A DNA stretch of 39,299 bases from Paracoccaceae bacterium (GTDB taxonomy: Bacteria > Pseudomonadota > Alphaproteobacteria > Rhodobacterales > Rhodobacteraceae), in the NCBI GenBank assembly GCA_013042605.1, contig JABDPT010000189.1, positions 1-39,299 on the forward strand, read 5' to 3'. Positions within the stretch are counted from its first letter, which is position 1, and each line of letters opens with the position of its first letter. Positions 12,780 to 39,241 of the stretch are shown here, in pieces. The notes under the pieces were generated by a model that was not told where the DNA came from, ran no database searches, and was given only the letters and a program-made list of their open reading frames with translations. The position numbers and the translations under genes are program-made.

Positions 12780-13136
12780 TCACGCGGCCTTATTCCACGC
12801 CCTTCGGCCGTCGCCGGAGCGTAGAATGCCGCGAAGTCGCGCAGCTTGCGTCCGAGGGCTCGTTGCACGCAATTGCCTTACGTTTCGTTCGTCGAACATC
12901 TGCCGGCGGACTTCGGTAAAGACACCCGCCAGAAGCGATCTGTCAAGTTCGGTGAGCACGGCGTAGAACTGATCGAAACTGATCCTTGCTATCCATGAGA
13001 ATAGATAGGGCTGCAGGGAACGCTCGGCCTGCTTGCACCGCGAAGGCCTCGTCCACTCCATAAAGTAGTCGCTTCCGGTTAGGAGAACCCAACCAATCAT
13101 CTGCGCTCGCACGAAGCGAGGCTGGATATTGGTCAC
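12780..13136 (-). CDS. Doubtful ORF, possible gene remnant
   Basis: A 118-codon ORF starting with GTG (MTNIQPRFVRAQMIGWVLL...) without a good ribosome site. The middle part (FDQFYAVLTELDRSLLAGVFTEVRRQMFDERN) looks protein-like and helical, but I recognise no family. An overlapping ORF in another frame on the same strand (12943-13287) suggests that the region may have suffered frameshifts. It lies in the decayed left end of the island. Confidence 0.2.
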   Translation of the reverse strand: MTNIQPRFVRAQMIGWVLLTGSDYFMEWTRPSRCKQAERSLQPYLFSWIARISFDQFYAVLTELDRSLLAGVFTEVRRQMFDERNVRQLRATSPRTQAARLRGILRSGDGRRAWNKAA

Positions 13137-13240: not shown

Positions 13241-13327
13241 TCACTTCGCGTCTTTGTTTCGCCAATCGTTGGCCAGCGCCCGTCCAATGCCGCGACTGGC
13301 GCCGGTGTTCAGAAATCCGGCGGTCAT
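13241..13327 (-). pseudogene. Truncated short-chain dehydrogenase (SDR), N-terminal fragment
   Basis: From the ATG at 13327 the minus strand reads MTAGFLNTGASRGIGRALAND and stops after 28 codons. TGASRGIGRALA is the classical SDR cofactor-binding TGxxxGIG motif, so this is the first strand and helix of an NAD(P)-dependent dehydrogenase. The remainder (about 220 residues in a normal SDR) is missing and no continuation is evident in other frames. The ATG overlaps the stop of the upstream SRPBCC gene (ATGA), showing that it was once the last gene of the cupin-ArsR-SRPBCC operon. Too short for the ORF track. Confidence 0.75.
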
Positions 13328-13758
13328 TGTCCGCCACCCTTGGCCTGGTTGCGCAACGAACGGATGTGCTCGTCCCAACCAGAATCCAGCGCCATCACCA
13401 GAGGCAGGGACGTCTCGCCAGCCGCGGCGGCGATGCCGCTATGCGTCAGTGTCAGCCGCGTGCCACCTGGCACCGCTTCCAACTGCCATTCCACACGGGT
13501 CTCATTGCCGTTGAATGGGGCGATCTCGAAGGTGTGAACCAAGCGGGTCGGGGCCTCGGCCACCAGGACCTTTCCCCAGATCTGGCGTACTTTCACGCCG
13601 TCATGAGCCGTCCGGTAGCATTCGAAGGCTTCGCCTGCGACCAGGTTCGCCTTGGCCGGATGAAACCAGGTGCCCAGCTTGTCCTTGTCGGTCAGGAACG
13701 TCCAAACCGTTTCCAGCGGCACATCGAAATAGGCGGTCTTTACGATCTTATCATTCAT
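13324..13758 (-). CDS. SRPBCC (AHSA1-like) family protein
   Basis: A 144-residue START-like helix-grip protein beginning MNDKIVKTAYFDVPLETVWTFLTDKDKLGTWFHPAKANL. Such proteins bind small hydrophobic ligands in a deep cavity. VEWQLEAVPGGTRLTLTHSGI is the usual second half, followed by the closing helix GWDEHIRSLRNQAK. The track gives 164 residues from 13818. I prefer the ATG at 13758 because the first 20 residues (DDWMPCRTRSATKPNRKKQ) overlap the ArsR coding end in another frame; it overlaps the regulator stop by eight bases. ArsR-SRPBCC pairs are widespread and generally involve autoregulated small-molecule responses. Confidence 0.85.
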   Translation of the reverse strand: MNDKIVKTAYFDVPLETVWTFLTDKDKLGTWFHPAKANLVAGEAFECYRTAHDGVKVRQIWGKVLVAEAPTRLVHTFEIAPFNGNETRVEWQLEAVPGGTRLTLTHSGIAAAAGETSLPLVMALDSGWDEHIRSLRNQAKGGGQ

Positions 13759-14083
13759 CTGTTTTTTCCTGTTCGGTTTCGTTGCGGATCGCGTCCTGCA
13801 AGGCATCCAGTCGTCCATCCCAGAACTGGCTGAAGTATTCGACCCAATCGGAAACTGCCTGCAGCGGCTCGGGGCTGAGACGGTTGATGCGTTCCCGCCC
13901 CTGCGGCCATGCGGTGACCAAACCGCCCTCTTCGAGGATAGTGAGGTGCTTCTTCACTGCCGTGCGGGTGATTTCGAAGCGGTTGCAAACCTCGCTCACC
14001 GTCATGTCCCGATTGGCCAGCAGGACCAGAATGTCGCGCCGGGTCGGGTCGGCAAGGGCGCGGAACGCGCCCTGTAGGCTCAT
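13751..14083 (-). CDS. ArsR family transcriptional regulator
   Basis: A 110-residue winged-helix repressor-like protein: MSLQGAFRALADPTRRDILVLLANRDMTVSEVCNRFEITRTAVKKHLTILEEGGLVTAW, followed by RERINRLSPEPL in the wing and a C-terminal helix (WVEYFSQFWDGRLDAL). It lacks the metal-binding Cys pairs of arsenic or zinc sensors and matches the ArsR subgroup paired with SRPBCC proteins. The start at 14083 overlaps the cupin gene stop (ATGA); the much longer track ORF runs through the cupin gene in another frame. It is the second gene of the operon and probably binds the two palindromes at 14519-14559 to repress its own transcription. Confidence 0.88.
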   Translation of the reverse strand: MSLQGAFRALADPTRRDILVLLANRDMTVSEVCNRFEITRTAVKKHLTILEEGGLVTAWPQGRERINRLSPEPLQAVSDWVEYFSQFWDGRLDALQDAIRNETEQEKTDE

Positions 14084-14502
14084 CGCTGCACCAGGTTGAA
14101 GTCGAATGCTCCATCCTGATACAGGAATGCAACGCATGGCGTGTCCGAGACGCAGGCGCTGACATGCGGCATCCCGCCGGGGATCATGTAATAGGAGCCG
14201 GGACCTATGGGCTGGCGCTCCGACGGCTCCATATCGACTGTAGTGTGCAAAAACGTCCCCGCTATGACGATGCCGTACATGTTTGCCGTCTTGACATGCT
14301 CTGGGCTGGCCAGCCCGGCGGGGAGCCGGACCATCGCCATGTATTCGCCATTGAACCGGTCGCCGTCGAGCGCGGCAAAGGCGGCGCCCTCCGAGGTGGC
14401 CTGCCAATCCAGAACGTCAGCGGGCAGACTGACAATATCTCCTGCGTCAACTGCAGAGGCGGAAACCGCGAGCGCGGCGATCGTTGTGATTATGCTTTTC
14501 AT
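14080..14502 (-). CDS. Exported cupin-fold protein
   Basis: A 140-residue protein with a Sec signal peptide (MKSIITTIAALAVSASAVDAGD, cleavage likely after the Ala-Val-Asp-Ala segment). One cupin-like beta-barrel follows: FNGEYMAMVRLPAGLASPEHVKTANMYGIVIAGTF, then PIGPGSYYMIPGGMPHVSACVS. The His residues in SPEHVK and GMPHVS sit where cupin metal ligands occur, so metal binding is likely. It is expected in the periplasm; its reaction is unknown. It leads an operon with ArsR, SRPBCC and the truncated SDR, and its promoter carries paired palindromes. Confidence 0.72.
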   Translation of the reverse strand: MKSIITTIAALAVSASAVDAGDIVSLPADVLDWQATSEGAAFAALDGDRFNGEYMAMVRLPAGLASPEHVKTANMYGIVIAGTFLHTTVDMEPSERQPIGPGSYYMIPGGMPHVSACVSDTPCVAFLYQDGAFDFNLVQR

Positions 14503-14567: not shown

Positions 14568-14833
14568 CAGGATTCACGAGACCGCGCTCGCACAATTTCG
14601 TGTAAGGCACGTCGTCGAAGCGTTACGACTGGACACCGTGGGGCGAGGCGCGATGTTGCTAAGCCGTCCGTTAAGGCAAGCAAGCGAGCGCAAAATGACG
14701 CGGGCCGATCACGTCGTATTCCTGGCGGGTTTGGCGCGGATCGAGAAAGTCTCCGAGCGGCTCGAGACCCTGCGCCATGGGGCGGTGGAGACAAGACGCG
14801 GACGATGTATGGCCACGTACGCTTCGACCTACT

Positions 14834-15406
14834 TCACCAGCGCTGATCCAAAAGCGCGGTCCCTCGCTTTCCTGCATCGAGAATCGTGTCTGAAAGCTCC
14901 CGGCTTTTGGCTAAGCGGGCGAGTGTGATCGTGCCCAGAAGCAATGCCATGGTTGCTACACCCTTGTCCGTAGCCCCGCGTTCGCCGGCGGTGAGCAGCC
15001 GGGCCATGCGTTCGACGGCGTACAATGCTTCAGCATCGGCTGCGCCGTCGAGACGGGCTATTTCTGCGCCCATGGCGGCAAGCGGGCAGCCTTCACTGCG
15101 ATCCTCCACATGCTCCGCCGAAAGGTAGCGCGTAACGTAATGGTCGCGGGCGGCAGCTTGTTCCGGACCGGCAGGTGCCGCCTCAACCACTGACAACACC
15201 TCGTCCACCGCATGTCTGAAAGCTGCGGCGACCAAGGCATCCTTGGATGCAAAATGCCGGTAGAAGCCGCCATGAGTCAGCCCTGCGGCCTTCATGACAT
15301 CAGCGACGCTGGTCGTTTCGATCCCGCGCTCTCGGAAAAGCCGCGAGGCCGCCTTCAGGATGCGCTCGTGGCTCTTCTGTTTTTCTTGCGCTGACATTCT
15401 TGGCAT
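14834..15406 (-). CDS. TetR family transcriptional regulator
   Basis: A 190-residue TetR-type repressor. The N-terminal helix-turn-helix is canonical: SHERILKAASRLFRERGIETTSVADVMKAAGLTHGGFYRHFASKDALVAAAF. The C-terminal ligand domain shows CPLAAMGAEIARLD and a final helix (ARLAKSRELSDTILDAGKRGTALL). The start could be M1 at 15406 or MSAQEKQK three codons later. It is divergent from an NmrA-like gene, 89 bp away, and regulators in this position normally control the divergent enzyme operon. The 250 bp downstream (14584-14833) hold no supported gene. Confidence 0.9.
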   Translation of the reverse strand: MPRMSAQEKQKSHERILKAASRLFRERGIETTSVADVMKAAGLTHGGFYRHFASKDALVAAAFRHAVDEVLSVVEAAPAGPEQAAARDHYVTRYLSAEHVEDRSEGCPLAAMGAEIARLDGAADAEALYAVERMARLLTAGERGATDKGVATMALLLGTITLARLAKSRELSDTILDAGKRGTALLDQRW

Positions 15407-15424: not shown

Positions 15425-15479
15425 TTGACAGTTTGGATTTTGATTATCATCTATATTTTAAGATTACAATTAACATCTA
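15425..15479. promoter_or_regulatory. Divergent tetR/NmrA promoter with direct repeats
   Basis: A short, very AT-rich patch in GC-rich surroundings. ATTATCATCTA (15443-15453) and ATTAACATCTA (15469-15479) differ at one position and are spaced 26 bp apart. A TTGACA at 15425-15430 could be a -35 for the plus-strand operon. The repeats are candidate TetR operator sites. Confidence 0.6.
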
Positions 15480-15495
15480 AATGGAGCGCCTCCCG

Positions 15496-16596
15496 ATGTC
15501 CCGAAAGCCAAAGATCCTTGTCACCAGCGCAAGCGGAAAAACCGGTCTGCAAACCGCGTTGATGTTGCTTCATCGGGATTTCCCCGTCCGGGCGCTGGTT
15601 CGACGGCGCGACCATCGGTCAGAGCGGTTGGAGCGGGCAGGCGCCGAGATCATGGTCGCCAATCAATATGCATTGCCGGATATGCGCGCGGCGATGCGCG
15701 GCGTGCAGAGGGCCTATCAATGCGCACCGACCGCGCCCAATGGCCTACACTTCAACGCGGTCTTCACCGCCGCAGCCTTTGAGGCCAGGCTGGAACACGT
15801 TGTGACGCTCAGCCAGTGGTTGTCGAGCGCGAACCACCCCTCGCTGTTCACCCGCGAAGTTTACCTCAGCGATATTCTGATCGGGATGCGGGAAGGGATG
15901 TCGGTGACTACCGTCAATCCGGGCTGGTTTGCTGACAACTACCTGATGGTTCTGGACATGGCGGCGCATATGGGCGTCTTCAGCATGCCGCTTGGCGACG
16001 GTCAGGTGAAGAGGAACGCGGCGCCTTCCAACGAGGATATTGCGCGCGTGGTCGTGGCAGCATTGACCGATCCCGATGTGCATGCAGGCAAGACTTATCG
16101 CCCGACGGGACCGGAGCTTCTGTCTCCGGACGATATCGCGGCGGCGATGGGCCGCGCGCTCGGCCGCAATGTCCGGTACATGGACATTTCAGAGCGCATG
16201 ATGGTCAAGGCGCTGAAGGCAAATCCGCCCTCGAATTATACCGTAGCCGCCGTGACGCAATTGGCGCTCTATGCCGAGGAATACCGCCGGGGCACCTTTG
16301 CCGTCGGCGCGCCAACCGATCACGTTGCGCGGATCGGCGGGCGCGAGCCCGAGCCATTCGAGACAGTCGTGCGCAGACATATTCAGGAACGCCCTGACCT
16401 AGGCCGCAGCACAACTCGAATGCTGGGTGCCATGGGTGGGTTCGCCAAGATGCTCCTGACCCGGCCATTCGACCTGAAGGCGGCCGAGGATGCGCGCGAT
16501 TATGTCCGGATCGCCGAGCCGACCTATGCGCAGGACGACGCCGAATGGCGGGGCAGCCATCCCCCCCTCGAAGCCGCGCACCTGCGCGTGGCTTGA
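15496..16596 (+). CDS. NmrA-like NAD(P)-binding oxidoreductase
   Basis: A 366-residue atypical SDR of the NmrA/HSCARG-like group. ILVTSASGKTGLQTALMLL gives the dinucleotide-binding loop at residue ~8, RALVRRRDHRSERLERAGAE the second strand, and NQYALPDMRAAMRGVQRAYQCAP the third. VTTVNPGWFADNYLMVL and TYRPTGPELLSPDDIAAAMGRALGR are typical of the substrate region. An extra ~90-residue C-terminal tail lacks a known domain. I prefer the ATG at 15496 (MSRKPK) because GGAG lies nine bases upstream; M1 of the track at 15481 would lack a leader. It heads an operon with carbonic anhydrase and haloalkane-dehalogenase-like genes, probably controlled by the adjacent TetR. Confidence 0.8.
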   Translation: MSRKPKILVTSASGKTGLQTALMLLHRDFPVRALVRRRDHRSERLERAGAEIMVANQYALPDMRAAMRGVQRAYQCAPTAPNGLHFNAVFTAAAFEARLEHVVTLSQWLSSANHPSLFTREVYLSDILIGMREGMSVTTVNPGWFADNYLMVLDMAAHMGVFSMPLGDGQVKRNAAPSNEDIARVVVAALTDPDVHAGKTYRPTGPELLSPDDIAAAMGRALGRNVRYMDISERMMVKALKANPPSNYTVAAVTQLALYAEEYRRGTFAVGAPTDHVARIGGREPEPFETVVRRHIQERPDLGRSTTRMLGAMGGFAKMLLTRPFDLKAAEDARDYVRIAEPTYAQDDAEWRGSHPPLEAAHLRVA

Positions 16597-16644
16597 TCCA
16601 CGGCCCTCACCGCACGTTACAGCCATTCCAAAGGAGAATTCCCC

Positions 16645-17217
16645 ATGAGCGTTCATGATGAACTGATCGCCCGCAACGCCCCCTTCGCGGCCACATTCGA
16701 TCGCGGAGACATGCCCATCTTGCCCCAACTGCGCACTCTGATCGTGACCTGCATCGACGCACGGGTCGATCCGGCCCATATCCTCGGCCTCGATCTCGGC
16801 GAGGCCATCGTGGCCCGCAACAACGGTGGCCGGGTGACGAGGGCGGTCATCGAAGAGATCCTGACCCTGACCGTCCTCGTCGGCGCAGCGACGGGCGGCC
16901 AGGAGTCCGCGTTCAATATCGTCTTGCTCCAGCACACCAATTGCGGCGCGCAGCGCCTGGCGGACCCGCAGTTGCAGGGCATGCTGCAGCAGAAATTCGG
17001 CATCGATGTCTCCGAATATGCGGTCACCGATCAGGCTGCCGACCTCATGACGGATATTGGCCGTCTTGCCGATGCGCCGGGCATGCCCGACGAGATGACG
17101 GTGTCAGCCATGGTATATGACGTGGCCAACGGAGCGGTGCAGGAGGTCGCGCCGGTCAAAAGCCTTGCCGAGTACCGCGCGGCAAAAGTCGGCGCCGCTG
17201 TGCCCATGGCGGAATGA
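16645..17217 (+). CDS. Beta-carbonic anhydrase family protein
   Basis: A 190-residue protein with the beta-carbonic anhydrase zinc set: TCIDARVDP (Cys36, Asp38, Arg40) and LLQHTNCGAQRL (His97, Cys100). EAIVARNNGGRVT is the conserved substrate loop. It should interconvert CO2 and bicarbonate in the cytoplasm, although this short subgroup with HTNCG is often annotated only as carbonic anhydrase-like. AAAGGAG precedes the ATG. It ends three bases before the next gene, so the operon is tight. The reason for a carbonic anhydrase between an NmrA reductase and a dehalogenase-like hydrolase is unclear. Confidence 0.85.
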   Translation: MSVHDELIARNAPFAATFDRGDMPILPQLRTLIVTCIDARVDPAHILGLDLGEAIVARNNGGRVTRAVIEEILTLTVLVGAATGGQESAFNIVLLQHTNCGAQRLADPQLQGMLQQKFGIDVSEYAVTDQAADLMTDIGRLADAPGMPDEMTVSAMVYDVANGAVQEVAPVKSLAEYRAAKVGAAVPMAE

Positions 17218-17220
17218 CCC

Positions 17221-18141
17221 ATGCGCTTCAGGCCCGATCCAGAACTCTATCCGTTCACCTCGCAGTGGTTGCCTCTCACCGATGGCACGCGGATCCACTA
17301 TGTCGACGAAGGGTCCGGGCCGGTCCTGTTGCTGTTGCACGGCAACCCGGCCTGGTCATTCCTTTACCGCAAGATCATTCCGCGGCTGAGCCGCGGCTTC
17401 CGCTGCATCGCGCCGGACTTGCCGGGCTTCGGCCTGTCCACGGCTCGGCCCGGATACGGCTATACCGCCAGTGAGCAGAGCGAGGCGATCGTCGCCTTCA
17501 TCGACGCGCTCGATCTGCAGGGCGCAGCTGTGATGATGCAGGACTGGGGCGGGCCGATAGGGCTTGGTGCGGCACTGGCGCGGCCCGACCGGATCGACCG
17601 GCTGATCATCGGCAACACGTTCGCCGGGCCGTTCCGGCGGCGCGGGCCGCGCGTCTTCTCGGCCATCATGGGGGGACCAGCGGGACGGTTCGCGGCATGG
17701 TCCTTCAGCGGCGTGGTCCGATGGTTCTTTACCGTCGGGGTCATGAAAAAACTGACGCGGGCGGAGTGGGCCATGTATCTCGCCCCATTCCGCCAGCGCG
17801 ACACCCGCCGCCCGACGGCGATCTTCCCGCGGCAACTGGTTGGGGCGGGCCCGTTCCTGTCCCGGATCAAGGCCGCGCTGCCGGAGATCGCGGACAAACC
17901 CGCTCTGATCCTGTGGGGCGACAGCGATTTTGCCTTCAAGACGGTAGAGCGGGACCAGTTCCGTGCGGCATCCCCGAACCACAGGGACATCACCCTGCGC
18001 AATGCCGGCCACTTCATTCAGGAGGATGCACCCGGCCCGATCTGCGAGGCGATCGAAGCTTGGTACGCCGACGATCCCGTTACTCCCCCCCCTGACACAG
18101 CCGCCACGCACAGCACCAACGAGGAAGAAAACCATGTTTGA
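17221..18141 (+). CDS. Haloalkane dehalogenase-like alpha/beta hydrolase
   Basis: A 306-residue alpha/beta hydrolase with the full haloalkane dehalogenase pattern. HGNPAWSFLYRKII gives the oxyanion loop with Asn42, and MMQDWGGPIGLG gives nucleophile Asp108 with Trp109 for halide binding. ILWGDSDFAFKT gives an acid, and NAGHFIQEDAP gives His264. Asp rather than Ser as nucleophile argues for dehalogenation or epoxide hydrolysis; the Asn/Trp halide pair favours the former. The cap domain has the expected length. The last 20 residues (PPPDTAATHSTNEEENHV) are a low-complexity tail. The stop overlaps the following membrane gene by eight bases. Confidence 0.82.
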   Translation: MRFRPDPELYPFTSQWLPLTDGTRIHYVDEGSGPVLLLLHGNPAWSFLYRKIIPRLSRGFRCIAPDLPGFGLSTARPGYGYTASEQSEAIVAFIDALDLQGAAVMMQDWGGPIGLGAALARPDRIDRLIIGNTFAGPFRRRGPRVFSAIMGGPAGRFAAWSFSGVVRWFFTVGVMKKLTRAEWAMYLAPFRQRDTRRPTAIFPRQLVGAGPFLSRIKAALPEIADKPALILWGDSDFAFKTVERDQFRAASPNHRDITLRNAGHFIQEDAPGPICEAIEAWYADDPVTPPPDTAATHSTNEEENHV

Positions 18142-18889
18142 CGTTCTTGAGATTTCCGTGCGCGTTTTCGCCGTGGCCCTGCCCGTTTGGGTCATGGCCA
18201 TCCTTGCCCTTGGTGCGGTACGCGCCGACCTCTCGGGTTTCCAGATGGCACTGGCGGCAATCTGGACGGCGCTGATCAGTGGCGCGTGGTTCGCGGCCAG
18301 TGTGCCGCTGTCACAGATCGGGGCGTTCCGTGTACCCAACAGCTTCGCCGAGCCGCCTCTGATCATCGGTTTTCTCATCGGCGGCGCGGCCCTGGTATGG
18401 GGGCTGGCGCGGCTGACAGCGACGGGGCGACAGATCACCGATGCCGCGCCGCTCAGCGCGATTGCGTCCTTCCAGATCGCGCGGGTGATGGGCGGACTGT
18501 TCCTCGTGGGCTGGCTGATAGGCCGTGTACCGCTGGAATTCGCCATTCCCGCGGGTCTGGGCGACATCTGGGCTGGTATTGCCGGGTATCAGGCGACCCG
18601 AGCCCTGGCCGCGGGTGCGCCCGATGCGCGCCGGAAACTTGTGCGCGCCAACACCATAGGACTTGCGGACTTCGCTATTGCCGTCATGCTTGGCGTCATG
18701 ACATCGGAGGGGATATTCCACACACTGTCCAAGGATGCACCAAACATCATCAACGACTACCCGCTCGCGCTGTTCCCCGCCTATTTCGTTCCGATCTTCA
18801 TAGGCTTCCATTTCATCGCGATCAGCCGCCTGCGGGCGGAGCGTAGGGAACGGGCGCATCTGCCGGCGGTTCAAGCCCAGAGAAGCTGA
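18134..18889 (+). CDS. Multi-pass membrane protein of unknown function
   Basis: A 251-residue integral membrane protein with about seven hydrophobic segments, opening MFDVLEISVRVFAVALPVWVMAILALGAV and ending in a basic tail (RLRAERRERAHLPAVQAQRS). The track ORF begins earlier (17963) in a shadow frame of the hydrolase. I use the ATG at 18134, which has GAGGAAGAAA directly upstream and overlaps the hydrolase stop. The family is not recognised. Co-translation with the dehalogenase-like gene suggests transport or sensing of the same compounds, but that is only inference from position. Confidence 0.65.
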   Translation: MFDVLEISVRVFAVALPVWVMAILALGAVRADLSGFQMALAAIWTALISGAWFAASVPLSQIGAFRVPNSFAEPPLIIGFLIGGAALVWGLARLTATGRQITDAAPLSAIASFQIARVMGGLFLVGWLIGRVPLEFAIPAGLGDIWAGIAGYQATRALAAGAPDARRKLVRANTIGLADFAIAVMLGVMTSEGIFHTLSKDAPNIINDYPLALFPAYFVPIFIGFHFIAISRLRAERRERAHLPAVQAQRS

Positions 18890-18977: not shown

Positions 18978-19850
18978 TTACGGCCTGTCCGCGTCTCGCG
19001 CCTTCAACCGCTGCGCGATTTCCCTCGACAAGCCGTTCATCACCGTTCTGATCCGGGAATTGGTCTTTTGCTCGGACAGACAGCTTATCCAAAGGCGGTG
19101 CCGCCCTTCCGCAAGACGGTCGGACAGCCGCGCCAGGCGCGGATCGTCTTCTGCGATGAATTCCGGCAGAAGCGCTGCGCCTCCCCCTGCGAGAACGAGT
19201 TCGCGGGTCGGCAGGACACCATCGACGCTAGCGACGACGATGGGCGTCTCGTCTTGCGGCACGAAATCCCGGGACAGTTCCGATTGGCCCGGCGGCGTGA
19301 AGACGGCGCGCACGGGGCCGCTCTGATCACTTCGTCGGTAAAGGCCGAAGCGGACCGGGCCAAGATCGATGCTGTGCAGATCGTGCGGCCGTGTCACGGC
19401 GACACGCAGCGCGATATCTGCCTCATAGCGATGCAGATCGACGAAGCGATCCGACGTCGTCAGCACCGGAAATATCTGGGGATGCGACGCCGAAAAGCGG
19501 ATGATTTCATCGGAGAACCCGGCCAGCACATGCGGGGAAAGCGACACGCGAACCTTGCCGAAAGCGATCCTGGCATCGTCCTTGTCAGGGTAAAGATGAC
19601 TGAGTTCCTGTTCGGCGCGTTCCATGACGGCAAGCGTCCGACGGCCGTGAAGCGTCAGTTCGAGCTCCCCGGAAATTCGCTCGAACAACTTCGTCCCGAG
19701 GCGCTCTTCGAGACGGTCAAGCCTTCGCGCGACGGTCGTTCTGTCCACCCCAAGCTCGCGCGCGGCGGCCATGAAGTTGCCGGATCTCGCTAGGGCCAGC
19801 AGGAATGGTGCGTCGGACCAAGGGAGTGGTTTACGTGCATTTTTGCCCAT
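18978..19850 (-). CDS. LysR family transcriptional regulator
   Basis: A 290-residue LysR-type regulator. The N-terminal winged helix is LPWSDAPFLLALARSGNFMAAARELGVDRTTVARRLDRLEERLGTKLFER, followed by the linker helix and a substrate-binding domain (VRVSLSPHVLAGFSDEII, PVLTTSDRFVDLHRYEADIALRVAVTRP). Such proteins usually activate a divergent target when bound to a small inducer. Here the divergent gene is the DUF1330 gene, 92 bp away. The ATG at 19850 (MGKNARKPLPW) is the only sensible start. Confidence 0.9.
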   Translation of the reverse strand: MGKNARKPLPWSDAPFLLALARSGNFMAAARELGVDRTTVARRLDRLEERLGTKLFERISGELELTLHGRRTLAVMERAEQELSHLYPDKDDARIAFGKVRVSLSPHVLAGFSDEIIRFSASHPQIFPVLTTSDRFVDLHRYEADIALRVAVTRPHDLHSIDLGPVRFGLYRRSDQSGPVRAVFTPPGQSELSRDFVPQDETPIVVASVDGVLPTRELVLAGGGAALLPEFIAEDDPRLARLSDRLAEGRHRLWISCLSEQKTNSRIRTVMNGLSREIAQRLKARDADRP

Positions 19851-19942
19851 GGCCGAGCGAAACCTCGCGTTGTTTGGCGGATTTGCGACGAATACACAAA
19901 CTTCTACGGAGAGTGAAACCCAAAACCCGCAAGGAGACTTTT

Positions 19943-20326
19943 ATGCATCCCATCCTCAAGACCCTCTCGACAATTGCACTCGCAACCTCAGTGCTTGCCG
20001 CGCCGGCGATGGCCGACCCCGTCTACATGATCGCTCAAATCCAGATCGAGGATCATGAGGCATTCTTCAACGAGTACGGTGCGGCCGCAGGCCCAATCGT
20101 CATCGGCAATGGCGGGCGCGTTCTTGTGGCTTCGCCAGCGGTCGACACGCTCGAAGGCGGATGGCCCGGGAACTGGACCGTGGTGATCGAATTCCCGTCG
20201 GAAGAGGCCGCCATGCAAGGCTGGTACAACTCGGACGCCTATCAGGAGGCCATCGATCTGCGAGTCGCCAACACCTCGCTCAACAACATGGTCCTCGCGC
20301 CGGCCTTCGTCCCCCCCGCCGAATGA
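19943..20326 (+). CDS. DUF1330 family exported protein
   Basis: A 127-residue protein with a signal peptide (MHPILKTLSTIALATSVLAAPAMADP) and a dimeric alpha-beta barrel domain of the DUF1330 type: VYMIAQIQIEDHEAFFNEYGAAAGPIV, GGRVLVASPAVDTLEGGWPGNWTVVIEFPS and GWYNSDAYQEAIDLR. Most DUF1330 proteins are cytoplasmic, so the signal peptide is a little unusual and implies periplasmic action. AAGGAG lies seven bases before the ATG at 19943. It is divergent from the LysR gene and followed by an SRPBCC gene. The family function is unknown. Confidence 0.85.
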   Translation: MHPILKTLSTIALATSVLAAPAMADPVYMIAQIQIEDHEAFFNEYGAAAGPIVIGNGGRVLVASPAVDTLEGGWPGNWTVVIEFPSEEAAMQGWYNSDAYQEAIDLRVANTSLNNMVLAPAFVPPAE

Positions 20327-20412
20327 TGACCACCTGACGCCCGGAGCGGACACAGGACCGCTCCGAGTACATCAACATGCCAACTATGCAAACCTCAGAG
20401 AGGACCCAAACC

Positions 20413-20880
20413 ATGCCGACAGCCGTCGTCAAAACCGTAATCGAAGCCCCGGTCTCCAAGGTGTGGGCCACATGGGACAATTTCGGACACATCGACCAGT
20501 TCAATCCGAACCTGAAGCGATCTTTCCTGATCGACAACAGCGCCAGCACAGGACTGGGCGCGCAGCGTCAATGCGATCTTGCGGATGGCAAGAACCACGT
20601 CAAGGAGCGCATCGTCGAATACGTGCCGGAACGACTGATGGTCGTCGACATCTATGACGGAACCATTCCTCTGAAATCGGCGACTGCGCGCATCGCCCTC
20701 GTCCCCCTTGCGACAGGCCGCACGGAGCTGACCTTCAGCTTGTCTTTCGTCCCGAAGCTGGGCGTGCTTGGACGCATTATTGGGCCGCTGATGAAGTGGC
20801 AAATCCGCAAGCAGATCGCCCAGCTCGTCGCTGCCAACCGGCGCTTCATCGAAGCCCGGGCGATACGCGAGGCCGCCTAA
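20413..20880 (+). CDS. SRPBCC family protein (polyketide cyclase/MxaD-like)
   Basis: A 155-residue START-like protein: MPTAVVKTVIEAPVSKVWATWDNFGHIDQFNPNLKRSFLI, then QRQCDLADGKNHVKERIVEYVPERLMVVDIYDG and a C-terminal helix with QIAQLVAANRRFIEARA. This matches the MxaD/polyketide-cyclase-2 type of ligand-binding fold. The track starts 12 codons earlier (MPTMQTSERTQT); the ATG at 20413 has GAGAGGA upstream and begins at the domain edge, so I prefer it. It probably follows the DUF1330 gene in one transcript under LysR control. The ligand is unknown. Confidence 0.8.
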   Translation: MPTAVVKTVIEAPVSKVWATWDNFGHIDQFNPNLKRSFLIDNSASTGLGAQRQCDLADGKNHVKERIVEYVPERLMVVDIYDGTIPLKSATARIALVPLATGRTELTFSLSFVPKLGVLGRIIGPLMKWQIRKQIAQLVAANRRFIEARAIREAA

Positions 20881-20964
20881 CGGAGACTGCCCCGTCCGGG
20901 GCTCGGCGCACCCCTTGGGTGCGCGCTCTCTGGCCCGTGTATCCCCCCAAATAGGAGCTTCGCA

Positions 20965-21597
20965 ATGACGTTTTTCGATCCTTCCGTGCTTCTGGCGTTT
21001 GTGAATTTCGCCTTTGTCGCGTCCATAGCGCCGGGTCCCAACAACCTGATGGTTGCCGCCTCGGGCGCCGCGTTCGGGATACGCGCAACGGCTCCGCATA
21101 TCGTCGGCATTGCACTCGGCTTCTCAGTCATGCTGTCGTCTATCGCGCTCGGCCTCGGTGCGATGCTTGACCGGTGGCCGCTCCTTCTAGTCGCCTTGAA
21201 ATGGGCGGGGATTGCCTGGCTTTGCGTCCTCGCCTGGCAACTCGCAAGGCCCGCCTTGTTTCCCGAGAAAGCCACCGAAAGCACCGTCGCCCGGTCTTCG
21301 GGCGCGCGTCCGATGACCCTGATAGAGGCCGCGCTGTTCCAATGGGTCAATCCGAAGGCCTGGGCCATGGTCGCGGCGGTTACGGCCGCTTATTCGGATC
21401 TGGCCGACGAGGCGTGGCATCGCGCAGCGCTGATGTCGTTCACCTTCATGATCGTCGCCCCCTTGTGCAACGGGACCTGGTTGCTGGGCGGCCGCGTACT
21501 GCTGGCGCGATTTTCGGCCGGCATCTGGAACCGCGGCCTCCTGCTTTTCTTGTCCGGCCTCATCCTTCTGAGCGCTGTCCTGATCCTGTCAGTTTGA
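20965..21597 (+). CDS. LysE/RhtB family amino-acid exporter
   Basis: A 210-residue inner-membrane protein with six predicted helices. The LysE/RhtB signature is VASIAPGPNNLMVAASGAAFGIRA near residue 17, followed by WAGIAWLCVLAWQLARPALF and FQWVNPKAWAMVAAVTAAY. Members export amino acids or related small molecules by proton exchange. TAGGAG precedes the ATG at 20965. It lies 84 bp after the SRPBCC gene on the same strand and could share its transcript. Substrate specificity cannot be read from the sequence. Confidence 0.88.
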   Translation: MTFFDPSVLLAFVNFAFVASIAPGPNNLMVAASGAAFGIRATAPHIVGIALGFSVMLSSIALGLGAMLDRWPLLLVALKWAGIAWLCVLAWQLARPALFPEKATESTVARSSGARPMTLIEAALFQWVNPKAWAMVAAVTAAYSDLADEAWHRAALMSFTFMIVAPLCNGTWLLGGRVLLARFSAGIWNRGLLLFLSGLILLSAVLILSV

Positions 21598-23683: not shown

Positions 23684-24331
23684 TCAGAAACCAAAGTCGT
23701 ATGCCGCTGCCTTATAGCTTGGCCTGGACGTCACGCGCTGGAGCCACTCCGCGATAGTCGGCCTGGACCCGAGCAGCTCGTCATTTTCCGGCGTCAACGC
23801 AATGTACTGCATCATCGTTGCGACAAAAATATCGGCGAGCGAAAAGTCTCCGGCCAGGAAATCTGCGCCGTCTCCCAGCGCCTGCCCGATCAGATCGAGC
23901 TGGTGGGAGATGACCGGCACTGACCCGGCGACGACTTCTTCGTTCATGACACCATCGAACGCGCCGATTTTCGGCGCGAGCCGTTGCATTACCAGATCGC
24001 CGATCACCGCCGGGTAGATGTACTGGCCTGTAATGTTGATCCACTTCTGCATGGTGGCATGTGCCTTCACATCGTCAGGTTGCAAGGCTGGCCCATCAAA
24101 TGCCTCATCCACGTAGCGTGCAATCGCCGCTGTCTCATAGATATGGAACCCTTGGTGATAGAGCGCAGGCACCTTGCCGAAGGGATGCACTTCCGCGAGG
24201 TGCCTCGGAGAATCTAGCTCAGCCGGATCGACAGCGATTCTTTCGTAAGGCACCCCCTTTTCTTCTAGTACGACGCGCGCTGCGAGCCCGTAGCTGCTCA
24301 TCTTCGACGCAGCCAGTATACAATCCGCCAT
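23684..24331 (-). CDS. Glutathione S-transferase family protein
   Basis: A 215-residue GST. The thioredoxin-like N-terminal domain reads SSYGLAARVVLEEKGVPYERIAVDP, with the cis-Pro segment HPFGKVPALYHQGFHIYETAAIARYVDEAF that binds the glutathione gamma-glutamyl group. The C-terminal helical domain includes GDFSLADIFVATMMQYIALTPE, the conserved N-capping region. Ser in SSYGLA is the likely activating residue. It is cytoplasmic, with substrate unknown. The start is preceded by AAAGGGGAAA. It is the last gene of the first accessory block, 320 bp from the diverged dusA end. Confidence 0.9.
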   Translation of the reverse strand: MADCILAASKMSSYGLAARVVLEEKGVPYERIAVDPAELDSPRHLAEVHPFGKVPALYHQGFHIYETAAIARYVDEAFDGPALQPDDVKAHATMQKWINITGQYIYPAVIGDLVMQRLAPKIGAFDGVMNEEVVAGSVPVISHQLDLIGQALGDGADFLAGDFSLADIFVATMMQYIALTPENDELLGSRPTIAEWLQRVTSRPSYKAAAYDFGF

Positions 24332-37436: not shown

Positions 37437-38402
37437 ATGACGACGCGGCGCGCATTCCTTGTCGGATTGGGCGGGCTCGCGCTTGCCGGGGCGGGCTTTG
37501 TCAGCGGGGCCTTCCGCGAAGCGCGGGCCCAGTCGGACCTGCGGTTATACGGCCGCGCGACGGTGATCGACAGCCGCGCCGGGGCGCTGGAATACGCGGT
37601 GGCCGGGCACGGCCCGCCGTTGATGATGATCCACGGCACCGGCGGCGGTTTCGATCAGGGGCTTCTTTTCGCCGCGAAGCTGCGGCAGCGCGGGTTCCGT
37701 ATCGTTGCGCCGTCACGCTTTGGATATCTGGGCAGCGCCTTTCCCGATGACGCCTCGCCAGCGCACCAGGCCGACGCGCTGGTCGATCTGCTCGATAATC
37801 TGGGCATCGACCGGCTGCCGGTTCTGGGCGGGTCCGCTGGGGCGCTCACGGCGGCGGAATTCGCGCTTCGGCATCCCGACCGGTGTTCGCATCTGGGCCT
37901 GCTGGTTCCGGCGGCGAACCTGACGAACCGCGACCCGGTGGAGTTCACAGCCCTGCAACGGCTTGCCGTTGGCGCCGTGCTGGGGTCGGATTTCGCGTTC
38001 TGGTCGCTGTCGCGTCTTGCGCCCGGCCAGATGATACGCACGCTGTTGGCCACCGATCCCGGGCTTCTGGACCAGGTGTCCGAGGATGAGCGTGGGCGGG
38101 CGCGGGCGATCCTTGACCAGATCTTTCCGATCAGCCGGAAGGTGGACGGGTTGCGCACCGACGGGTTCTGGGCGGGGACGCCGTCACCCACAGCTTACGA
38201 GCGGATATCCGTGCCGACGCTGATCCTGTCCTGCGAGGACGATCTTTTCGGGACTGCAGCCACGGCGCGGCTTCTGGCCGAGCGGATCGCCGGCGCGGAC
38301 CTGACCGTCTTTCCGACGGGCGGACATATCTGGCTTGGCCGCGATGCCGAGATGGCGGACCGGATCGTGGGATTCCTGCGGGCCGAAGCCGCGAACGGAT
38401 GA
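37437..38402 (+). CDS. Tat-exported alpha/beta hydrolase
   Basis: A 321-residue alpha/beta hydrolase with a twin-arginine signal (MTTRRAFLVGLGGLALAGAGF). The catalytic elements are MMIHGTGGGFDQG (oxyanion), VLGGSAGALTAAEFALRHP with nucleophile Ser133 in G-G-S-A-G, LILSCEDDLFGTA (acid) and FPTGGHIWLG (His). It likely hydrolyses an ester outside the cytoplasm. I use the ATG at 37437 because it begins exactly at the twin-arginine region; the track begins six codons earlier. It overlaps the next gene by ATGA and follows the nitroreductase by 22 bp, so these are one operon. Confidence 0.87.
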   Translation: MTTRRAFLVGLGGLALAGAGFVSGAFREARAQSDLRLYGRATVIDSRAGALEYAVAGHGPPLMMIHGTGGGFDQGLLFAAKLRQRGFRIVAPSRFGYLGSAFPDDASPAHQADALVDLLDNLGIDRLPVLGGSAGALTAAEFALRHPDRCSHLGLLVPAANLTNRDPVEFTALQRLAVGAVLGSDFAFWSLSRLAPGQMIRTLLATDPGLLDQVSEDERGRARAILDQIFPISRKVDGLRTDGFWAGTPSPTAYERISVPTLILSCEDDLFGTAATARLLAERIAGADLTVFPTGGHIWLGRDAEMADRIVGFLRAEAANG

Positions 38403-39241
38403 GGAGACGACCGATGATATGGGTTCTGGCGATATTCGCCGCAATTCTGGTCGGGGCTGGGTTTTGGATGTGGAGCACCAGCCTGCCCCGCGCTTTCGAG
38501 GCCCGCCGGGCAGAGGCGATGGCCGCCCCCCGCCCAGACGCCCCGATCCTCACGGAAGAAGCCATCGCGCATCTTCCCCCGCCGGTCCGGCGCTATATCG
38601 CGCTGACGGGGTCCATCGGGCGGCCCGTCGTTACGGAGATCACCCTGCGCTTCGACGGCGCGATGTTTGACGCTCCCGGCGTGCCGGGCATGACCGGTCC
38701 GGTCGTGCAATACGAGCGTTTCGATACGCCCGACCGGTTGTTCCTGATGACGACGCGGATGAAGGGCCTGCCGGTCGCGGTCTTGCACGATTTCCAGCGC
38801 GACCGTGCAACGATGCGCGTGCGGCTGGCGGGGCTTTTCAACGTGGTCGATATCGGCGGGCCGGACCTGACCCGCACCGAGACGGTGACGATCCTGAACG
38901 ATCTGGCCTTTTTCGCGCCCTCGCGGCTGACCGATCCGCGCCTGAACTGGACCGAGATCGACGACCGCCGGGCGGGCGTGAATTTTGCGCTCGGGCCCAA
39001 TACCGTGTCGGCGGAACTGGTCTTCAACGACGCGGGCGAGCTGGTCGATTTCGTGTCGAACGACCGAGGGATGCTGGAGAAGGACGGCACGCTGCGCATC
39101 CTGCGTTGGACGACGCCGCTGGGAGAATACCGCGACTTTAACGGCTGGCGGGTGGCCAGTGAGGGCGACGCGATTTGGCATTTGCCGGAAGGGCCGTTCA
39201 CCTATGGCCACTTGAGACTGACGGGCTATGAGGCGCAGTGA
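38399..39241 (+). CDS. DUF6544-like membrane-anchored protein
   Basis: A 280-residue protein with one N-terminal membrane helix (MIWVLAIFAAILVGAGFWMWS) and a beta-rich domain: LPPPVRRYIALTGSIGRPVVTEITLRFDGAMF, QYERFDTPDRLFLMTTRMKGLPVAVLHDF, and EYRDFNGWRVASEGDAIWHLPEGPFTYGHLRLTGY at the end. This layout matches the DUF6544 (formerly DUF6920-like) proteins as I remember them; I am fairly but not fully sure. Function unknown. Start overlaps the hydrolase stop (ATGA). Confidence 0.7.
   Translation: MRRRPMIWVLAIFAAILVGAGFWMWSTSLPRAFEARRAEAMAAPRPDAPILTEEAIAHLPPPVRRYIALTGSIGRPVVTEITLRFDGAMFDAPGVPGMTGPVVQYERFDTPDRLFLMTTRMKGLPVAVLHDFQRDRATMRVRLAGLFNVVDIGGPDLTRTETVTILNDLAFFAPSRLTDPRLNWTEIDDRRAGVNFALGPNTVSAELVFNDAGELVDFVSNDRGMLEKDGTLRILRWTTPLGEYRDFNGWRVASEGDAIWHLPEGPFTYGHLRLTGYEAQ

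Follow-up and report, generated by a model that had tools for sequence, protein, structure and literature searches.

A TetR-regulated operon joining NmrA-like, carbonic-anhydrase-family and haloalkane-dehalogenase-like proteins in a Paracoccaceae bacterium: a candidate inducible detoxification cassette

In Escherichia coli, the nemRA-gloA operon, encoding a reductase and a glyoxalase, is controlled by NemR, a TetR-family electrophile sensor whose Cys106 senses reactive chlorine (PMC5297802). Subfamily III of the haloalkane dehalogenases (HLD-III) contains enzymes such as DhmeA, with the catalytic pentad N63/W130/D129/D258/His; its members have low dehalogenase activity, and OleB, a β-lactone decarboxylase that releases CO2, is a putative HLD-III (PMC10503415). 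Carbonyl sulfide hydrolase (COSase), carbon disulfide (CS2) hydrolase and some β-carbonic anhydrases share clade D of the latter family (PMC8209446). Here we analysed a 39,299-nt stretch of DNA (the window; contig JABDPT010000189.1, assembly GCA_013042605.1) from a marine-type Paracoccaceae bacterium, in which components of these kinds are combined under one regulator: a TetR-family gene (tetR) lies back to back with four genes, nmrA, CA, HLD and mem, encoding an NmrA-like oxidoreductase, a carbonic-anhydrase-family protein, a haloalkane-dehalogenase-like hydrolase and a membrane protein.

In this locus, as in nemRA-gloA, a TetR-family repressor with a conserved cysteine (near position 106/107) stands beside a reductase linked to NAD(P)H and one further detoxification enzyme (PMC5297802), but the reductase here is NmrA rather than an old yellow enzyme, and the locus adds the CA-family protein, the HLD-like hydrolase and the membrane protein. 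All of its soluble components fall into known families, and its layout is similar to that of TetR-repressed detoxification operons already described. A preliminary description, made from the DNA sequence alone, knew of no described system with this set, and likewise we found no description of it in the open-access literature searched. The reading we favour, to which we give about an even chance of being correct, is that the operon is a TetR-repressed, inducible cassette for detoxification of electrophiles or xenobiotics. Its features are as follows.

14834-15406, minus strand: tetR, TetR-family repressor, 190 amino acids (aa) (Pfam TetR_N, 7.7e-17)
15425-15430, plus strand: TTGACA, probable -35 element of the operon promoter, containing the conserved TTGAC box
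15432-15455, no strand assigned: candidate operator O1, imperfect palindrome TTTGGATTTTGATTATCATCTATA, a dyad conserved at orthologous loci
15458-15481, no strand assigned: candidate operator O2, imperfect palindrome TTAAGATTACAATTAACATCTAAA, a conserved dyad 26 bp after O1
15496-16596, plus strand (open reading frame opening at 15481): nmrA, NmrA-like NAD(P)-binding oxidoreductase (NmrA PF05368, 1.9e-19)
16645-17217, plus strand: CA, β-carbonic-anhydrase-family protein, 190 aa (Pro_CA PF00484, 3.8e-10)
17221-18141, plus strand: HLD, haloalkane-dehalogenase-like α/β hydrolase (Abhydrolase_1, 4.9e-29)
18134 (ATG) to 18889, plus strand: mem, polytopic membrane protein, 251 aa, without Pfam match

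Analysis of open reading frames placed tetR on the minus strand, divergent from the plus-strand genes, with 48 bp between nmrA and CA, 3 bp between CA and HLD and an 8-bp overlap of HLD and mem; the NmrA, Pro_CA, Abhydrolase and TetR_N assignments all exceed the curated Pfam cut-offs. The reading frames, order and spacing given in the preliminary description are correct, including its remark that the last three lie within three bases of each other or overlap. The start of tetR is possibly at 15397, where its orthologues begin.

The DNA between tetR and nmrA carries a conserved regulatory architecture. None of the 15 intergenic regions that were aligned departs from a TTGAC box. A simple sigma-70 scan did not find a promoter. 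The repeats ATTA(T/A)CATCTA reported previously are indeed exact, at 15443-15453 and 15469-15479 (two matches with at most one mismatch to ATTAWCATCTA, against 0.23 expected), and they form the right half-sites of the two 24-bp imperfect palindromes O1 and O2, which are positioned between the TTGAC box and the nmrA start. Across the aligned regions, the dyads follow the consensus TTTAGAT-N10-ATCTAAA directly downstream of the box, the best copies of the O2-type dyad matching at 7/7 arm positions, and the best pair is spaced by exactly 26 bp in 13 of the 15. Together, the two best dyads scored 176, a value reached by none of 1,000 shuffles (mean 137, maximum 148), where the null model preserves base composition and the 15 sequences are related. 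In the 3.54-Mb genome the exact half-site pair occurs three times, two of these being O1 and O2; with one mismatch allowed there are 16 sites, compared with one for a reversed control pattern. At a further locus (L050), the same kind of TetR with dyads faces mem alone. Because the dyads are conserved in nearly all 15 loci, L050 included, these candidate sites are almost certainly the TetR operator, judging from comparison of the sequences, and we infer that TetR binds to them. A TetR helix-turn-helix domain together with two conserved palindromes at its own divergent promoter points to a local repressor, and the TetR control of the operon that had been proposed is thus supported at the sequence level.

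The operator also bears on the start of nmrA. Translation is likely to begin at the ATG at 15496 (MSRKPKILV...) rather than at 15481, because the former is preceded by a GGAG (15483-15486, 9 bp upstream) and is used by most orthologues, and the latter lies inside the operator. The NmrA protein has an NmrA-type Rossmann fold with an NAD(P) motif (GKTG). Its AlphaFold2 (AF2) model (pLDDT 83) and sequence profile find as nearest relatives SimC7, QOR2 (YtfG), SwaQ2 (with doxorubicin) and triphenylmethane reductase, with Foldseek values for the model of 7.8e-17 for SimC7 and 8.0e-16 for QOR2. These four are enzymes that reduce quinones, carbonyls or dyes. E. coli QOR2 matches in both fold and profile, but identity is only 18-20% and the C-terminus of the Paracoccaceae protein is longer. 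An HxlR gene stands divergently beside many relatives of this NmrA, an arrangement that E. coli has for ytfG and the HxlR gene ytfH; in the window TetR takes the place of HxlR.

The CA-family protein has the features of a β-carbonic anhydrase: a CxDxR plus HxxC zinc site, an Asp-Arg dyad and a Pro_CA score above cut-off. The zinc ligands Cys36, His97 and Cys100, which had been placed correctly before, and the D38/R40 dyad, which had been overlooked, are invariant in 18 relatives. The nearest solved structures are 3las (a putative carbonic anhydrase) and Rv1284; besides β-carbonic anhydrases, profile comparison also finds COS hydrolase (at 6.4e-20) and CS2 hydrolase (at 1.9e-13). The protein has the Cys-His-Cys zinc site and Asp-Arg dyad in common with the clade D family (Rv1284, COS hydrolase and CS2 hydrolase) but differs in a signature of its own (DARVDPAH, RNNGGRVT) and in its genetic link to nmrA. 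Its predicted substrate may be CO2 or a compound like COS or CS2.

The HLD-like protein carries the complete pentad N42/D108/W109/D236/H264, invariant in seven orthologues; Asn42, Asp108, Trp109 and His264 had been recognized in the preliminary description and the acid, D236, had not. The residues D108/H264/D236/N42/W109 align with D129/His/D258/N63/W130 of DhmeA, so that the Asp-His-Asp and Asn-Trp residues stand at positions equivalent to those of HLD-III (DhmeA, DrbA and DmbC, with OleB a divergent case). Its nearest PDB matches are haloalkane dehalogenases and HLD-like enzymes, 8ooh and 8ckp being the best. Identity to HLD-III is nevertheless moderate, and a CA partner conserved as it is here is not described for that subfamily. 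We file the protein only as HLD-like because it scores below the curated NCBIfam dehalogenase cut-offs (239 of 466 bits for PRK03204, 168 of 241 for PRK03592 and 154 of 265 for PRK00870). Identification as an epoxide hydrolase was considered and rejected, as no pair of cap tyrosines was seen by eye, Y186 alone being invariant in that region.

The membrane protein and the CA–NmrA link are the least explained parts of the operon. Mem has no Pfam, NCBIfam or PDB sequence match, and a PDB fold search with its AF2 model (pLDDT 85) gave no match at E < 0.001. Its C-terminal part is homologous to a membrane protein of 162-168 aa (hhalign E 1.3e-6; hmmsearch 3.2e-10), which follows nmrA-CA at locus L059 and nmrA alone in Paraburkholderia (L068), where the pair adjoins a TetR-like regulator. 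In seven genomes without the operon (L051-L057), mem orthologues stand alone and divergent from a small HxlR-type regulator, Pfam having been checked for one of these regulators.

We were interested in how far this gene order extends. A search of a genome collection with the single CA sequence as query returned 16 loci. The arrangement tetR|nmrA-CA-HLD-mem recurs at 84-94% identity in Jannaschia, Roseivivax and Kangsaoukella, and at 48-72% identity in a metagenome-assembled genome (MAG) of an alphaproteobacterium, so the possibility, raised beforehand, that the order is conserved nowhere else is ruled out. Other loci depart from it: Tritonibacter and Ruegeria atlantica have the order nmrA-CA-mem-HLD; Ruegeria EL01 has nmrA-CA-HLD with a broken nmrA; Roseibium and Labrenzia have only tetR|nmrA-CA; Maritalea has nmrA-CA adjoining an HxlR-type regulator, without HLD and mem; and Deinococcus has the pair reversed, as MerR-CA-nmrA. 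In Paraburkholderia and at L101, more distant CA relatives have SDR oxidoreductases and a LysR gene as neighbours. Recurrence in differing lineages and arrangements therefore indicates that CA has been linked repeatedly to NAD(P)-binding oxidoreductases. NmrA and CA distances are correlated (Mantel r 0.65, reached in 0 of 5,000 permutations), a value from which relatedness has not been removed.

Of 296 genomes of the order, 8 have a strong CA orthologue and 5 an HLD orthologue, which adjoins CA in all five. NmrA (at least 56% identity) occupies 12 places in genomes of the order, 5 of them beside CA; of the remaining seven, at least six lie opposite an HxlR regulator, and in four the next gene is DUF1330. 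The family is rare, with CA in 3 of 385 genomes of a sample of the class. Additional genes enter at single loci: a glutathione S-transferase (GST) 15 bp after mem in the MAG (L025), a MAPEG protein directly after HLD (L061) and an α/β hydrolase after a TetR-CA pair (L035). The regulator is likewise exchanged, being TetR, HxlR (for nmrA and for CA) or MerR. The most constant part is nmrA with its divergent regulator, usually joined by CA at these loci, and HLD, mem, GST, MAPEG and DUF1330 are optional modules.

Several neighbours of the operon were also recorded. At 12783-12983 (minus strand) the window holds the C-terminal remnant of a second small NmrA-like gene; Jannaschia (L022) and Roseivivax (L023) have an intact copy, which lies upstream of the operon. 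At 14740-14828 (plus strand) is what remains, with a frameshift, of an AraC-type regulator that is complete and next to tetR at the same two loci. A LysR | DUF1330-SRPBCC-LysE block lies directly downstream (18978-21597) and has been conserved together with the operon at L023 and L024; a Cupin-ArsR-AHSA1 block beside tetR (13324-14502, minus strand) is co-conserved in Kangsaoukella (L024). Farther away are a glutathione S-transferase gene (23684-24331, minus strand), 5 kb from the operon, and a DUF6544 protein (38399-39241, plus strand) adjoining an α/β hydrolase and a nitroreductase-family gene. A phage or defence origin was rejected, since the matches to PHROGs were generic only and PADLOC returned nothing.

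An inducible detoxification cassette is the best-supported reading because of the NmrA folds, the parallel between TetR Cys107 and NemR, and the presence of GST and MAPEG, both general detoxification proteins, as swapped partners. Cys107 is part of a GCP motif and does not vary among 11 TetRs. Under this model, TetR bound to O1/O2 would block transcription until an incoming reactive compound releases it, perhaps through Cys107. NmrA would then use NAD(P)H to reduce an electrophile of quinone-like or carbonyl type, the HLD-III-like hydrolase would open an alkyl halide, epoxide or β-lactone-like ester via its Asp nucleophile, and the CA-family enzyme would hydrate CO2 or a CO2-like heterocumulene (for example, COS or CS2), with the membrane protein acting as a channel, exporter or partner at the membrane. 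Several points weigh against this model. The closest PDB relatives of TetR are anonymous regulators and NemR is not among the matches listed; many TetR proteins have a cysteine in a GCP motif, which is no proof of thiol sensing; and GST and MAPEG each occur at one locus only. NmrA, moreover, has no obvious catalytic Tyr/Lys and could be a redox sensor, of which there are examples among NmrA proteins, instead of a reductase, and we know of no established role for a carbonic anhydrase in electrophile detoxification. A more specific proposal, to which we assign only a small probability, is that NmrA and CA are a functional pair in which CA, instead of hydrating CO2, hydrolyses a CO2-like electrophile, constituting an undescribed detoxification pathway to which HLD, mem, GST and MAPEG are add-ons.

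The preliminary description had suggested one coherent pathway, perhaps for a halogenated or epoxide compound that releases or needs CO2/bicarbonate. In such a pathway a specific organohalide of marine origin would undergo hydrolytic dehalogenation, or epoxide opening, NmrA would reduce the product and CA would handle CO2 or bicarbonate. The complete HLD pentad, the dehalogenases and HLD-like enzymes among the nearest solved relatives, and CA beside every HLD orthologue in the order are consistent with such a pathway, yet most nmrA-CA loci (Roseibium, Labrenzia and Maritalea) lack HLD, the protein falls under the dehalogenase cut-offs, HLD-III enzymes are poor dehalogenases (PMC10503415), and the operon has neither a halide transporter nor genes for haloacid or alcohol oxidation. 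We consider it unlikely. Of the earlier interpretation, TetR control, a single operon, shared function and conserved order are supported; its halogenated or epoxide and CO2/bicarbonate chemistry is not established, as HLD and mem are optional and CA may not use CO2, and the variability of the gene set favours a stress cassette of flexible composition over one fixed linear pathway. The adjacency of CA would also fit an OleB-like β-lactone decarboxylase whose CO2 is removed by CA, given the listing of CO2-releasing OleB as a putative HLD-III (PMC10503415), but neither this operon nor the orthologous operons encode a thiolase (OleA), an AMP-dependent β-lactone synthetase (OleC) or OleD, and CA occurs without HLD at most loci, which leaves this chemistry very improbable.

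If CA were a hydrolase of the COS/CS2 type, the operon might handle a thio- or isothiocyanate-like compound. The profile matches to both hydrolases besides β-carbonic anhydrases, and the clade they share with some of the latter (PMC8209446), favour this; with 3las and Rv1284 as the best matches and no sulfide-handling gene in the operon, however, sulfur chemistry is decidedly unlikely. The free swapping of parts in a rare and patchy family, as for horizontally moved islands, could alternatively reflect unrelated genes on a mobile promoter island without joint function. The shared operator and regulator, the tight gene overlaps, the recurrence across genera and the independent CA-nmrA arrangement in Deinococcus speak against this, and we think it a doubtful explanation.

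The detoxification cassette proposed here is a small, testable operon in which one regulator with a defined operator links a CA-family enzyme to an HLD-III-like enzyme. A reporter assay can be built directly on the operator sequence, and the inducer of TetR would show to which class the natural substrates of both enzymes belong.

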